39,843 nt of DNA. Origin: Candidatus Zipacnadia bacterium (GTDB taxonomy: Bacteria > Armatimonadota > Zipacnadia > Zipacnadales > Zipacnadaceae). The notes under the pieces were generated by a model that had not been told where the DNA came from, ran no database searches, and was given only the letters and a program-made list of their open reading frames with translations. Shown one piece after another: positions 30,824-36,383 of this stretch; position 1 is the stretch's first letter; each line of letters starts with the position of its first letter. The stretch is from assembly GCA_029821195.1 (NCBI GenBank), contig JALGTU010000006.1, positions 1-39,843 on the forward strand, in the 5' to 3' direction. A program made the translations under genes and the position numbers.

Positions 30824-30908
30824 TGGTGGGCGCGGGGAGATTCGAACTCCCATGGGTTGCCCCACATGATCCTAAATCATGCATGTCTACCAATTCCATC
30901 ACGCGCCC
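30824..30908 (-). tRNA. tRNA-Leu (anticodon UAG)
   Basis: 85 bases including encoded CCA. Acceptor GGGCGCG/CGCGCCC pairs perfectly; anticodon stem CATGA/TCATG with loop TTTAGGA gives anticodon TAG; a long variable arm and the T-arm GGGAG-TTCGAAT-CTCCC follow. Its first 10 bases overlap the 3' end of the upstream isomerase gene, whose TGA stop lies inside the tRNA. Confidence 0.95.
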
Positions 30909-31885: not shown

Positions 31886-31961
31886 TGGTGGGCCGTGCAG
31901 GATTCGAACCTGCGACCTGAGGATTAAGAGTCCCCTGCTCTACCAACTGATCTAACGACCC
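31886..31961 (-). tRNA. tRNA-Lys (anticodon CUU)
   Basis: 76 bases with encoded CCA. Acceptor GGGTCGT pairs with ACGGCCC with G-U pairs; anticodon loop CTCTTAA on stem GGGGA/TCCTC gives CTT; T-loop TTCGAAT is standard. Last tRNA of the array. Confidence 0.94.
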
Positions 31962-32002
31962 ACCCAAGCCGTTAGGTTGTTGTTTCTGTCGTTCTGCTGC
32001 TT

Positions 32003-32035
32003 GTTGTGCTGCTGTTGTGCTGCCGTTGTGCTGGT
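32003..32035 (+). repeat. 11-nt tandem repeat, three units
   Basis: GTTGTGCTGCT, GTTGTGCTGCC and GTTGTGCTGGT follow each other directly between tRNA-Lys and tRNA-Arg(UCG). No other feature lies in this spacer. Confidence 0.7.
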
Positions 32036-32041
32036 GTCAAA

Positions 32042-32118
32042 TGGCGCGCCTGGAGGGATTCGAACCCCCGACACCCGGATCCGAAGTCCGGTGCTCTCAT
32101 CCACTGAGCTACAGGCGC
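32042..32118 (-). tRNA. tRNA-Arg (anticodon UCG)
   Basis: 77 bases with CCA. Acceptor GCGCCTG/CAGGCGC, anticodon stem CCGGA/TCCGG with loop CTTCGGA giving TCG, discriminator G. Confidence 0.94.
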
Positions 32119-32149
32119 GCTCTGGCTCATCGCTTTTGCTTATGGGTGA

Positions 32150-32224
32150 TGGGGTGGACGATGGGATTCGAACCCACAACCACCTGAGCCACAGTCAGGT
32201 GCTCTACCTTTGAGCTACGCCCAC
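32150..32224 (-). tRNA. tRNA-His (anticodon GUG)
   Basis: 75 bases with CCA. Acceptor GTGGGCG/CGTCCAC; anticodon stem CCTGA/TCAGG with loop CTGTGGC giving GTG. Position 73 is C and the base before the 5' end is G, the identity pair of tRNA-His. Confidence 0.95.
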
Positions 32225-32239
32225 CACCAAGATAAAATG

Positions 32240-32315
32240 TGGCGCGCCCGGCCCGATTCGAACGGGCGACCGGCGGCTTAGAAGGCCGCTGCTCTATCCT
32301 CTGAGCTACGGGCGC
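32240..32315 (-). tRNA. tRNA-Arg (anticodon UCU)
   Basis: 76 bases with CCA. Acceptor GCGCCCG/CGGGCGC; anticodon stem GCGGC/GCCGC with loop CTTCTAA giving TCT; T-loop TTCGAAT. Confidence 0.95.
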
Positions 32316-32383
32316 AATCCTGCCACACGAACAGCCCGGCCAGCCCGGCTGTTCCCGCCGGCTACCTCAAGCTAAAAATCAAT

Positions 32384-32459
<76 letters not shown>

Positions 32460-32474
32460 TCGGATACGCTATTG

Positions 32475-32552
32475 TGGTCGGGGCGGCCGGATTCGAACCG
32501 GCGACCTTCGGCTCCCAAAGCCGACGCGCTAGCCAAGCTGCGCCACGCCCCG
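32475..32552 (-). tRNA. tRNA-Pro (anticodon UGG)
   Basis: 78 bases with CCA. Acceptor CGGGGCG/CGCCCCG, discriminator A; anticodon stem TCGGC/GCCGA with loop TTTGGGA giving TGG. First tRNA after the array promoter. Confidence 0.94.
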
Positions 32553-32678: not shown

Positions 32679-32924
32679 ATGGCTCGGCTCCGGTCGGCAA
32701 TTGCTGCCGTGAAACTGCCGCGCAGTGCCCTGATTCTGGGGCTTATCGTCGTGGCCGCGTTGCTCTGGCAGCAGGTTTTCACGATGACCGGTGTCGCCCG
32801 ATGGTCTGAGCCGCCCGCGGTTGAACGCCCGGCTCCCCCAGAGCCCGTTGCTCTCCAGCCCCTGGCGGCTGGTTGGGTCAATCTAGAAGCCTACCAGCGG
32901 ACTCATCCGGCCTGGGACCCGTAA
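32679..32924 (+). CDS. short single-pass membrane protein, unknown
   Basis: An 81-residue product: basic N-terminus (MARLRSAIAAVKLPRS), one membrane segment at about 17-35 (ALILGLIVVAALLWQQVF), then a proline-rich linker (SEPPAVERPAPPEPVALQP) and a conserved-looking tail (GWVNLEAYQRTHPAWDP). I do not recognise a family. A strong promoter lies so close that the mRNA probably has almost no leader; the AGGGG at 32672-32676 is only 2 bases from the ATG and a poor ribosome site. The TrmFO-like gene starts 20 bases after its stop, so both should share a transcript. Confidence 0.6.
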   Translation: MARLRSAIAAVKLPRSALILGLIVVAALLWQQVFTMTGVARWSEPPAVERPAPPEPVALQPLAAGWVNLEAYQRTHPAWDP

Positions 32925-32944: not shown

Positions 32945-34285
32945 ATGAACCGCTCTTCTGTACCACAAGTGACAGTGATCGGTGGGGGCGTCGCCGGGGC
33001 AGAAGCAGCCTGGCAGTCGGCGCAGGCCGGTGCGCAGGTGGCCCTCTATGAGATGCGTCCTGGCGCGGCTACCCCGGTACATCGCACCGAACTGCTCGGC
33101 GAACTGGTCGGCGCGAACTCGCTGGGCGCAACCACCACTCACAAAGCCGCCGGGCTCCTGAAGCAGGAGCTGCGCCAACTGAAGTCGCTGGTCATACGCG
33201 CCGCTGATGAGAGCGCGCTTTCCCGCGAGCGCGAACTGCTAGTAGACCGCACAACTATGGCGGGCACGATAACCGAGCTTATCGCTACTCATCCGCGAAT
33301 TGAGCTGCGCCGCGAAGAAGTAGCCGAACTGTCTGCGATCGAGCCGCTGATCATCGCTACCGGCCCGCTGACCTCCCAGCCGCTGGCCCGCTCTCTTTAC
33401 CGGTGCATCCGTCACGCTTACCGCTTCTTCTACCAGGCCAGTGCGCCGATCGTCACGCTCCCCAACATATATGACCGCGGGCTGCTGCCCGGTTGCCCGT
33501 ATGACCCGGAAGATGATAGCGGATTGAACTGTCCGCTGGACGAGAATGCTTTCGAGCAGTTCTGCGCTGCTCTGAGCACGGCGCAGACAGGTCTGCCTGA
33601 CGAATATGACGGTAGGGAGATGCTCGAGGGCTATCTGCCGGTGGAAATAATGGCCCGGCGCGACCCGCATCTGCTGCGGCGCGGCCCGATGAGTCCCGGG
33701 CGGCTGGTAGACCCGGACAGCGGCGAACGGCCGCCGGCAATCGTGCGGCTGATGGCCGAGGATACCGAGGGGCAGTTGTGGCGGCTGCTCGGCATGGGCA
33801 CGGGCTTGCTGCCCGAGGAGCAGGCGCGAGTGCTGCGGATGATCCCGGGCCTGGAGGACCTGGAAATAGTGCGGCCCGGCCAGGCGGCGCGCAGCGTTTT
33901 TCTCTGTGCCCCGGCCCTCCTGGCTCGGACCGGCCGCGTGCGTGATGGCGAGGGCCTCTTCCTGGCCGGACAACTGATCGGCACGGCTGACTACGTCGAG
34001 GCAGCGGCCACCGGCTGGCTGGCGGGAGTCAATGCCGCCCGCTGGGCCCAGAGCGAGACGCCGCTCCTATTCCCCCCAGAAACAATGCTCGCAGCGCTGA
34101 TGCATCGCCTCACCCAGAGCAATCCTGACACGTTCGCCCCCCAGTCGGTGAACTTTGGTATGCTCCTGCCAGTGCCGGGCGACAGGAACCTGCCCAAGGA
34201 TGAACGGCGCGAGGCGCAGGTGGCGCGCTCCCAGGCCGCCCTGACGGAGTTCGTCACCGAGCAGATGCCGGAGCCGCGTGAATAG
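32945..34285 (+). CDS. TrmFO-like flavoprotein lacking both catalytic cysteines
   Basis: The 446-residue protein aligns by eye over its length to the folate/FAD-dependent tRNA (m5U54) methyltransferase TrmFO: FAD motif VTVIGGGVAGAEAAWQ at 9-24, YEMRP at 35-39, NSLGATTTHKAAGLLKQEL, ATGPLTS at 138-144, CPLDENAFEQFCAAL, PVEIMARR, GPMSPGRLVDP, RMIPGLEDLEIVRPG and the C-terminal FAD contact FLAGQLIGTADYVEAAATGWLAG. The two family cysteines (Cys53 and Cys226 in Bacillus subtilis) fall on G56 (ELVGANSL for ELVCSNSL) and Y230 (LEGYLPVEIMA for FEGCMPIEVMA). It is therefore either inactive as a methyltransferase or chemically different. It lies divergent to a tRNA array and ends 6 bases from the convergent reductase gene. 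Length and frame are intact. Confidence 0.85.
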   Translation: MNRSSVPQVTVIGGGVAGAEAAWQSAQAGAQVALYEMRPGAATPVHRTELLGELVGANSLGATTTHKAAGLLKQELRQLKSLVIRAADESALSRERELLVDRTTMAGTITELIATHPRIELRREEVAELSAIEPLIIATGPLTSQPLARSLYRCIRHAYRFFYQASAPIVTLPNIYDRGLLPGCPYDPEDDSGLNCPLDENAFEQFCAALSTAQTGLPDEYDGREMLEGYLPVEIMARRDPHLLRRGPMSPGRLVDPDSGERPPAIVRLMAEDTEGQLWRLLGMGTGLLPEEQARVLRMIPGLEDLEIVRPGQAARSVFLCAPALLARTGRVRDGEGLFLAGQLIGTADYVEAAATGWLAGVNAARWAQSETPLLFPPETMLAALMHRLTQSNPDTFAPQSVNFGMLLPVPGDRNLPKDERREAQVARSQAALTEFVTEQMPEPRE

Positions 34286-34291
34286 CGCCGT

Positions 34292-35320
34292 CTAGCCGTA
34301 TGCGCGCCAGTCGCCAGCGTTGGCGGCGTTGCGCATTTTGGCGGTTACATTGCCGTCGTAGTAAGTGGCGACGGCCACCCCGGGCGGCGCGATCTCGTCA
34401 ATCTGCGCCAGCTCTTCCTCGGTGAACTCTATTTCACATGCCTGCGCGGACGAGCGCACGTGCTCCACTGTCCGGCAGCCTGATATCGGGGCGGTAATGA
34501 ACGGCCGGTTCATCACCCAGGCCAGCGCGTACTCAGCCAGCGTGCAGCCCTTGGCTTCGGCCAGGGGGCGCAACCGCTCGGCGACCGCTAGCGCTTCATT
34601 GGTAAAGCGCTTCTTGCCCAATTCTGCGCTCTGGAAACGACTGCCCTGGGGCCGGATGTCGCCCTTGCCGTATTGGCCGGTGAGCAAACCGCCGGCAATC
34701 GGCGCCCACGAAGCGATGCCGATGCCGTGGCGCAGGCAGGTCCAAGCCACCTCGTTCTCCAGCAGGCGGTCCACGAGGTTGTAGGGCGGCTGTTCGGCGA
34801 CCAGGCGCGGCCAGCCCCAGCGCTCGCTGGCACAGATCATCTCGGTAATGAGCGTCGCCGGGAACTTGGAGGTGCCGATGTAGAGGATCTTGCCCTGGCG
34901 AACCAGCGTCTCCAGAGTCTGCAGGATCTCGTCAATGGGCGTGGTAATGTCCACGAGATGCAGGTAAAACAGATCAATACGGTCGGTCTGCAGCCGGCGC
35001 AGGCTGGCCTCGACCGCCCGAACCAGGTGATAGCAACTGGCGCCACGGTCGTTCGGCCCGTCGCCCATTTTCCCCACCGCCTTGGTGGCCAGGAACGTCT
35101 CATCGCGCCGTCCGCTTTGGGCGAGGGCCTTGCCGATATATTCTTCAGCCAGTCCGCCCCCGTAGACGTCGGCGGTGTCAATAAAGTTGATGCCCAGGTC
35201 GAGCGCCTCGTTGACCATCTGGATGGCGGTCGGCTCATCGGTCCGTGCCCCAAAGCTCATCGTTCCCAGACACAGCGACGAGACGCGCACGCCACTGCGG
35301 CCAAGCTGTCGGTATTCCAT
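34292..35320 (-). CDS. aldo/keto reductase
   Basis: The 342-residue enzyme has a TIM-barrel AKR signature: LGRSGVRVSSLCLGTMSFG at the N-terminus and the catalytic tetrad D48 (FIDTADVYGGG), Y53, K80 (FLATKAVG) and H121 (FYLHLVD). It resembles the YakC/perakine-reductase-like and voltage-channel-beta-like AKRs that reduce aldehydes with NADPH; the substrate is unknown. The ATG at 35320 is chosen because GGGAGG lies 7 bases upstream; the frame extends to 35344 with no signal. It lies 73 bases after the methyltransferase gene and converges on the TrmFO-like gene with almost no spacer. Confidence 0.92.
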   Translation of the reverse strand: MEYRQLGRSGVRVSSLCLGTMSFGARTDEPTAIQMVNEALDLGINFIDTADVYGGGLAEEYIGKALAQSGRRDETFLATKAVGKMGDGPNDRGASCYHLVRAVEASLRRLQTDRIDLFYLHLVDITTPIDEILQTLETLVRQGKILYIGTSKFPATLITEMICASERWGWPRLVAEQPPYNLVDRLLENEVAWTCLRHGIGIASWAPIAGGLLTGQYGKGDIRPQGSRFQSAELGKKRFTNEALAVAERLRPLAEAKGCTLAEYALAWVMNRPFITAPISGCRTVEHVRSSAQACEIEFTEEELAQIDEIAPPGVAVATYYDGNVTAKMRNAANAGDWRAYG

Positions 35321-35393
35321 TGTATTTCCTCCCAGGTGCGGCAACTTTGCGACTATGCAGGGGTTGATTTCGTCGTGGCGGCCAGAGTTCCTT

Positions 35394-36206
35394 CTATCCC
35401 GGGGCTGGCGAGCTGGGCTTTATCACGCCGTATTCGATCCGGCTGTTGCCGCCGGCCACAATCTCCACCGCGAAGGGCAGCCCCTGCCAGTAGTTGCTGC
35501 CCCGGCGCTGCTTGACGACCACAGCGCGGCGGGCCACCCGCCGGGCCTGCTCGAGCGCCCCCACATCTACCGGCTGGTCATCAGCCAGCGCGCGCAGTGG
35601 CACCATCGCCGGGGAAGCCTCGAGCGGCTGCGCGAAGATTGGGTCGAAATAGACCACGTCGAAGCTGCCATCGGCGGATTCGGACAGAACGTCATGATAA
35701 TCGGCGCGGTGAACCTCGATGCGGCGCATAGCGGCGGCGACGTCGTGCGGACGGATTTCGTACGTCGCCAGGCCGTGAGCAGCCAGCGCGGCCAGGACCA
35801 CCACGCGCTCGGTCCCGACGACTTGACCCGCCTCGCCTACAATCCAACTGGCCACGATGGCATCGCTGCCCCGCCCCAGCGTGCAGTCCAGAACATCGTC
35901 TCCGGGGCCTAACTTCATCGCGGTAACCATCGGATCGCCGCGCCCCACCGTCAGGTTATGGATGCGGGTCTTGGCCATGCTGGGGTGGAAGGAGTATTCT
36001 ACACCCCGGGCCGGCTCGTAGTAGACCGGTTGCTGCTGCCGGGCAATCACCAGGACACCGCCGACCTGCTCGTCGGCTGCCAGCGTGGCGAGACTGCGGT
36101 CGCGGCGCGGTACGGCGCGGGTCCCCAGACGCTCAGCCCACGCTGGCGCGTCGGTGCGCCAGTGGGCATCCGGGTTGCGGGAGCTGGTCACCACCAGACT
36201 GCTCAT
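35394..36206 (-). CDS. RsmJ/YpiP-like class I SAM-dependent methyltransferase
   Basis: About 270 residues. The N-terminal third (VVTSSRNPDAHWRTDAPAWAERLG, VYYEPARGVEYSFHPSMAKTRI) matches the DUF548/RsmJ-like group; the SAM site is DDVLDCTLGRGSDAIVAS at about 107-124 with an acidic ribose contact downstream (VGTE). FDVVYFDPIFAQP at about 177-189 resembles the catalytic DPxF/Y-type motif. E. coli RsmJ methylates 16S rRNA G1516; whether this divergent protein does the same is uncertain. GAGGGTGG before the ATG at 36206 decides the start over an upstream ATG at 36236. Confidence 0.8.
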   Translation of the reverse strand: MSSLVVTSSRNPDAHWRTDAPAWAERLGTRAVPRRDRSLATLAADEQVGGVLVIARQQQPVYYEPARGVEYSFHPSMAKTRIHNLTVGRGDPMVTAMKLGPGDDVLDCTLGRGSDAIVASWIVGEAGQVVGTERVVVLAALAAHGLATYEIRPHDVAAAMRRIEVHRADYHDVLSESADGSFDVVYFDPIFAQPLEASPAMVPLRALADDQPVDVGALEQARRVARRAVVVKQRRGSNYWQGLPFAVEIVAGGNSRIEYGVIKPSSPAPG

Positions 36207-36383
36207 CGTACCACCCTCAGGTGGCCTGGCCTGCATTATTCAGGAAGATAAAAGGGGTGAACCTTCGAAAGATGTGTAGGTGCCCCTCAAAAGCTATGGA
36301 CGGTAGTTCACAGTTCGTTGTGAGCAGCGACACGATGCAACTATCAACTGCGTTACTCAACTTTCAGAGTTTTTGCCGGAAGA

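Follow-up and report, generated by a model that had tools for sequence, protein, structure and literature searches.

The window, a 39,843-nucleotide stretch of DNA, encodes a full-length TrmFO homologue in which both catalytic cysteines have been replaced while the reading frame has stayed intact. Comparison of this protein with its relatives suggests that an operonic trmFO has probably lost its FAD/folate-dependent m5U54 chemistry, and that the FAD-binding protein has been kept by selection for some other role. The relatives come from 41 genomes of a single order, among which we distinguish the window's genus (g1), a genus of family f3 (g6) and a further family (f5); residue numbers follow T. 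thermophilus TrmFO unless the numbering of the window protein is given.

The match of the open reading frame (Table 1) to TrmFO spans its full length, in profile and phmmer searches as well as in the predicted fold. T. thermophilus TrmFO is matched with a phmmer E of 2.6e-93 at 42% identity, and the profile scores are 419 bits for NF003739 (cut-off 262) and 402 bits for TIGR00137, which has a cut-off of 428.65. Three canonical TrmFO proteins of the order reach NCBIfam scores of 624-669 bits; with NF003739, canonical proteins of the order stand at about 640-670 bits and the g1 and g6 cysteine-less proteins tested at 373-424 bits, above the 262 cut-off. This equivalog model will give cysteine-less proteins the wrong name, that of an m5U54 methyltransferase; since it accepts proteins lacking the catalytic cysteines, m5U54 predictions based on annotation are unreliable for these genomes. 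By descent the window protein belongs to the TrmFO superfamily, but m5U54 methyltransferase would be the wrong label for it.

Table 1 Features of the window discussed in the text
Feature	Position	Strand	Remarks
Cysteine-less TrmFO-family flavoprotein	32945..34285	+	446 aa; ATG start, with TTG at 32873 as possible alternative start
G56 codon, site of catalytic Cys51	33110..33112	+	Gly in 19/19 cysteine-less, Cys in 44/44 canonical proteins
Y230 codon, site of nucleophile Cys223	33632..33634	+	Tyr/His in g1, Tyr in g6, variable in f5
A315-R316-S317 codons, folate contacts H308-R309-N310	33887..33895	+	R309 alone kept
Y350 codon, flavin-stacking Tyr343	33992..33994	+	Kept in 19/19 cysteine-less proteins
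Small protein	32679..32924	+	81 aa; a single hydrophobic stretch of membrane type; separated by 20 bp from the TrmFO-like ORF downstream
tRNA-Leu(TAG)	30824..30908	-	Part of tRNA block conserved in genus
tRNA array Lys-Arg-His-Arg-Gly-Pro	31886..32552	-	Divergent from the ORF

In TrmFO, Cys51 either carries the FAD-methylene adduct or serves as general base, Cys223 activates the uracil, and both are required for methylation of U54 (PMC5954106, PMC7226160), with H308, R309 and N310 providing folate contacts (PMC7226160). Alignment with 44 canonical TrmFO proteins, that of T. thermophilus among them, agreed residue by residue with an earlier note on this DNA, which had described an undamaged TrmFO homologue deprived of both cysteines. 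Cys223, present in all 44 canonical proteins, is Y230 in the window protein, and H308 and N310, each likewise found in 44/44, have become A315 and S317; the note had also described the loop after RMIPGLE as lacking the family histidine-containing segment. Across the cysteine-less set, R309 is kept in 19/19 proteins; H308 is lost in g1 and kept in g6 and in 6/10 f5 proteins, while site 223 is occupied by A, Q, H, M, S or T in f5. C51, K243, Q278 and N310 are lost in every cysteine-less protein and R263 in nearly all of them; the window's genus is without R179, K243, R263 and Q278, all conserved in canonical TrmFO. Site 61 of the window protein is Gly in 19/19 cysteine-less proteins and Lys or Arg in most canonical ones.

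The FAD site has been spared these changes. All 19 cysteine-less proteins retain its glycines together with E31, R33, T137, G335, G339 and Y343, and G8, G10, G13, E31 and Y343 are all present in the window protein, whose FAD-binding motifs and TrmFO layout had been described as intact over the 446 residues. Of 125 columns conserved in canonical TrmFO, 70 are fully kept in the window's genus. Each of the three cysteine-less groups also has newly fixed residues of its own, and a function shared by all three is consequently not required. In the conserved GPMKPVGL-DPRTG loop, the f5 copies (such as L054 6006-7313) are about seven residues shorter, which marks f5 as the most divergent of the cysteine-less groups.

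As judged from the alignment, no remaining cysteine is a credible replacement for Cys51 or Cys223, including the three (C184, C196 and C207, window numbering) that the earlier note had named as possible occupants of the active site. C196 aligns with T. thermophilus C189, which lies far from the TrmFO active site (PMC7226160). Within the genus, C184, C153 and C320 are not conserved, and C207, though invariant, lies on another helix, at a position where canonical TrmFO mostly has Tyr.

Structure prediction, which had been proposed as a check, recovered the TrmFO fold with high model confidence (AlphaFold2; pLDDT 92.8, pTM 0.93), and the best PDB matches to the model are three T. thermophilus TrmFO structures. 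The TM-score to 3g5s is 0.62 for the window protein and 0.64 for a modelled canonical control of the same family. We rejected an altered domain arrangement, as the canonical control is equal to the window model in TM-score and rmsd to 3g5s; the large rmsd, being common to both models, is uninformative about the cysteine-less protein.

Full-length homologues at 59-71% identity are found in four further g1 genomes, where site 51 is always Gly and site 223 is either Tyr or His; the N-terminal part of a homologue, again with Gly at site 51, is present in a fifth. Because genus mates share the losses, sequencing error or chance is excluded as their cause. Within the genus, dN/dS of the cysteine-less gene is 0.16-0.26 (Nei-Gojobori), similar to that of trigger factor (0.20-0.25) and above that of clpX (0.10-0.15) in the same genomes. 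The gene is under purifying selection in the genus, where the cysteine-less form is a conserved state rather than a sporadic defect. In f5, the cysteine-less copies have values of 0.28-0.52, compared to 0.14-0.34 for their canonical counterparts in those genomes. A C-terminal piece of a second cysteine-less-type TrmFO gene was seen in one genus mate (L067 5135-5482, G003:C29), fused to an unrelated frame and lying next to a DUF429-like one; it is either what is left of a further copy or a join made during assembly.

Cysteine-less homologues occur in three places in the order: in g1, in g6 (5/5 genomes) and in f5 (10/10 genomes). Beyond the window protein, 18 of these genes have full-length open frames; in one g6 genome (G036) the gene is split across two contigs. 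A profile built from the 19 full-length sequences scores its own members at 545-630 bits and the top canonical protein at 490 bits, and a search of 291 genomes of the phylum yielded no additional protein scoring like the profile members. A canonical TrmFO accompanies the cysteine-less one in 9/10 f5 genomes and in two g6 genomes, and the cysteine-less gene is the sole TrmFO in the window's genus as well as in G016 (96% complete), G034 and G036. No TrmFO homologue at all was found in G005, G008, G010, G011, G013, G020, G022 and G025, several of which are incomplete drafts, and full loss of trmFO is also seen in g3.

Among the canonical trmFO genes of the order and class, many stand in the arrangement small membrane-type protein, trmFO, xerC, hslV, hslU. 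In g6 and f5 this operon slot is filled by the cysteine-less gene, and the canonical gene is located elsewhere, without these neighbours. The cysteine-less gene and the small protein have stayed adjacent in the window's genus, and genus mates have xerC and hslVU on other contigs, without trmFO. By position, the cysteine-less proteins are best taken to descend from the ancestral trmFO of the operon, and the catalytic copy, where both coexist, to be the relocated one. The operon is kept in G020 and G025 with trmFO deleted and the slot closed; in G011 the slot between small protein and xerC (L144 1721-3624, G011:C96) holds two unrelated metabolic genes that by eye resemble a sugar isomerase and an alcohol dehydrogenase.

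The small protein itself has a conserved tail (DTxWVDLxAYxRTHPxW) and matches no Pfam family at cut-off; across most of the class it precedes trmFO in the operon, as its ancestral partner there. An obligate functional link between the two was rejected, the small protein being present without trmFO in G011, G020 and G025; it was not found in G003.

In trees containing all rows, the cysteine-less proteins group together with SH-aLRT support of 98-99, also after removal of the active-site columns. When each group is placed singly, the window's genus falls beside a canonical protein of the same family (SH-aLRT 89), g6 beside the canonical set of the order and f5 near the class. These separate placements, which scatter the three groups, disagree with the joint trees and make long-branch attraction likely; the cysteine-less state may have arisen one to three times.

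The window's genome (G000), a draft of 3.0 Mb in 237 contigs that is 95% complete, was searched for a second trmFO or a trmA, as had been suggested, and yielded neither a second TrmFO nor a COG2265-type TrmA/RlmCD homologue. Nor was a PF05958 protein (TrmA/RlmCD) present in 46 genomes of the class, in a search that detected its positive controls, which leaves TrmFO as the only known way to m5U54 for these bacteria as a class. The tRNA genes of the array have a standard GTTCGA T loop that includes U54, and we predict that this base is unmethylated in tRNAs of the window's genus. A canonical trmFO or trmA may possibly have been missed in the draft genome, but it gives a picture consistent with that of the genus mates and the class.

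We also considered whether the window protein replaces MnmG/GidA, the tRNA U34 modification protein, which has a homologous FAD domain. The match to MnmG is partial and weak, at 70.8 bits where the cut-off is 524.85, and falls short of the family in score and length. MnmG and full-length MnmE are both absent above family cut-offs from the window's genus and f5, hence there is no orphan partner that would call for a replacement, and this candidate was rejected. Several other families of the order do have MnmG and MnmE, which makes for a patchy loss of the wobble-uridine pathway.

With Cys51, Cys223, H308, N310, R179, K243, R263 and Q278 all gone in the genus, the methylation reaction is not expected of the window protein. 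Production of m5U54 by other means, with Tyr230 as nucleophile or through a ThyX-like activation that needs none, is very improbable. The protein does retain its fold and FAD site, Tyr stands at site 223 in g6 and most of g1, and a Tyr nucleophile has been raised for the TrmFO-like proteins of Mollicutes (PMC7226160); however, the spread of residues at site 223 (Tyr/His in the genus, six different ones in f5) argues against a catalytic constraint across the set, the folate contacts H308 and N310 have been lost as well, and the Mollicutes protein with Tyr at both sites modifies none of U54, U1939 and U747 and did not replace thymidylate synthase (PMC7226160). That the gene is a functionless, slowly decaying trmFO which persists by chance is also improbable, if somewhat less so. 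Repeated loss of TrmFO in the order, including the two genomes with an operon from which trmFO has been deleted, and the faster evolution of the f5 cysteine-less copies relative to canonical copies of the same genomes are in line with such a relic, yet the 18 further full-length frames, the low dN/dS within the genus and the 70 conserved columns that are kept all speak against it, as does the selective pattern of loss, in which catalytic and folate residues have gone and FAD-site residues have been spared.

A different kind of retention would be non-catalytic tRNA binding, in which a tRNA-folding or chaperone function is kept and methylation dropped, as in E. coli TrmA and TruB, whose tRNA chaperone activity is independent of catalysis (PMC11301382); a bovine mitochondrial Trm2 homologue lacks a key catalytic residue (PMC11301382). 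Substrate tRNAs bearing U54 are present, and the basic residues R72, R97, R118, R303 and K409 are retained in the window's genus. We consider this explanation unlikely, since the genus has lost R179, K243 and R263, the last two of which are missing from essentially all cysteine-less proteins, and the mean net charge is about -13 in cysteine-less compared to about -9.5 in canonical proteins of the order. The strict retention of Tyr343 (19/19) would be unneeded by a pure tRNA binder, unless FAD has a structural role, and the literature examined describes no chaperone activity for TrmFO itself. The earlier note had proposed a re-purposed flavoprotein, with tRNA binding among its options; the FAD site, intact and under purifying selection, is consistent with the former, and the loss of R179, K243 and R263 weakens the latter.

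Loss of the methylation chemistry with retention for another role is the explanation that we favour. The order's own operonic trmFO would have lost both cysteines, H308 and N310, and several conserved basic and polar residues, and selection would have retained the FAD site and fold for a role without methylene transfer to uracil. The protein presumably still binds FAD. With FAD site and fold under selection, flavin-dependent redox chemistry or cofactor binding, acting on another substrate, would be the most likely role, rather than pure tRNA binding. More tentatively, it is conceivable that a tRNA methyltransferase has evolved into a flavoenzyme that catalyses a new reaction and is perhaps connected with the small protein upstream, the Cys-to-Gly change being its mark in three lineages of the order. 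Given the loss of trmFO in relatives (g3, G020 and G025), the cysteine-less protein could also be on its way out.

Compared to canonical TrmFO (T. thermophilus 3G5S, B. subtilis), the window protein is alike in full-length homology, predicted fold, domain arrangement and FAD residues including Tyr343, and differs in lacking both cysteines, His308, Asn310, R179, K243 and R263. The TrmFO-like proteins of Mollicutes (e.g. MCAP_0613; PMC7226160) resemble it more closely in that both cysteines are replaced and the FAD site is kept. They have Tyr at both cysteine sites and strictly keep H308, R/K309 and N310 (PMC7226160), whereas the window protein has Gly and Tyr, with Gly at site 51 throughout its set (19/19), and keeps R309 only; it also belongs to a different, uncultured lineage and descends from a gene of the xerC-hslVU operon. 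RlmFO of M. capricolum (MCAP_0476; 23S rRNA m5U1939) is likewise a TrmFO homologue with a changed role, but it depends on the conserved cysteine nucleophile (PMC7226160), where the window protein has Y230. In the literature searched, mostly open-access papers, we found no loss of the TrmFO cysteines beyond Mollicutes. Cysteine-less TrmFO-like proteins are already published from that group, and the Gly/Tyr form with lost folate contacts adds to them, as a second occurrence, outside Mollicutes, of TrmFO descendants that have outlived the methylation chemistry. One order here holds the canonical operon gene, cysteine-less copies either alone or alongside a canonical copy that has moved, and genomes with no trmFO, a variety that makes it possible to ask what role TrmFO has besides U54 methylation.

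The seven minus-strand tRNA genes that had been reported as divergent from the TrmFO-like gene are indeed there, and the same divergent set of six tRNA genes and tRNA-Leu is found in G003, G004 and G006, with the array end seen in G001; the genus block with the array also holds clpX, clpP and tig. The array had been taken as a possible hint of a tRNA-linked function. This did not hold up, as the array adjoins the gene in the window's own genus only: the g6 and f5 cysteine-less genes, at the head of the xerC-hslVU operon, have no comparable tRNA array nearby, so that this gene order is a matter of common ancestry in the genus and carries no evidence of a tRNA function. Proximity to valS is common to g6 and the window's genus, in a different geometry, and is a weak resemblance. 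At 34292-36236 on the minus strand, an aldo-keto reductase gene lies directly convergent with the TrmFO-like gene, an arrangement absent from the genus mates examined, and adjoining it is a gene for a PF04445 SAM-dependent methyltransferase.
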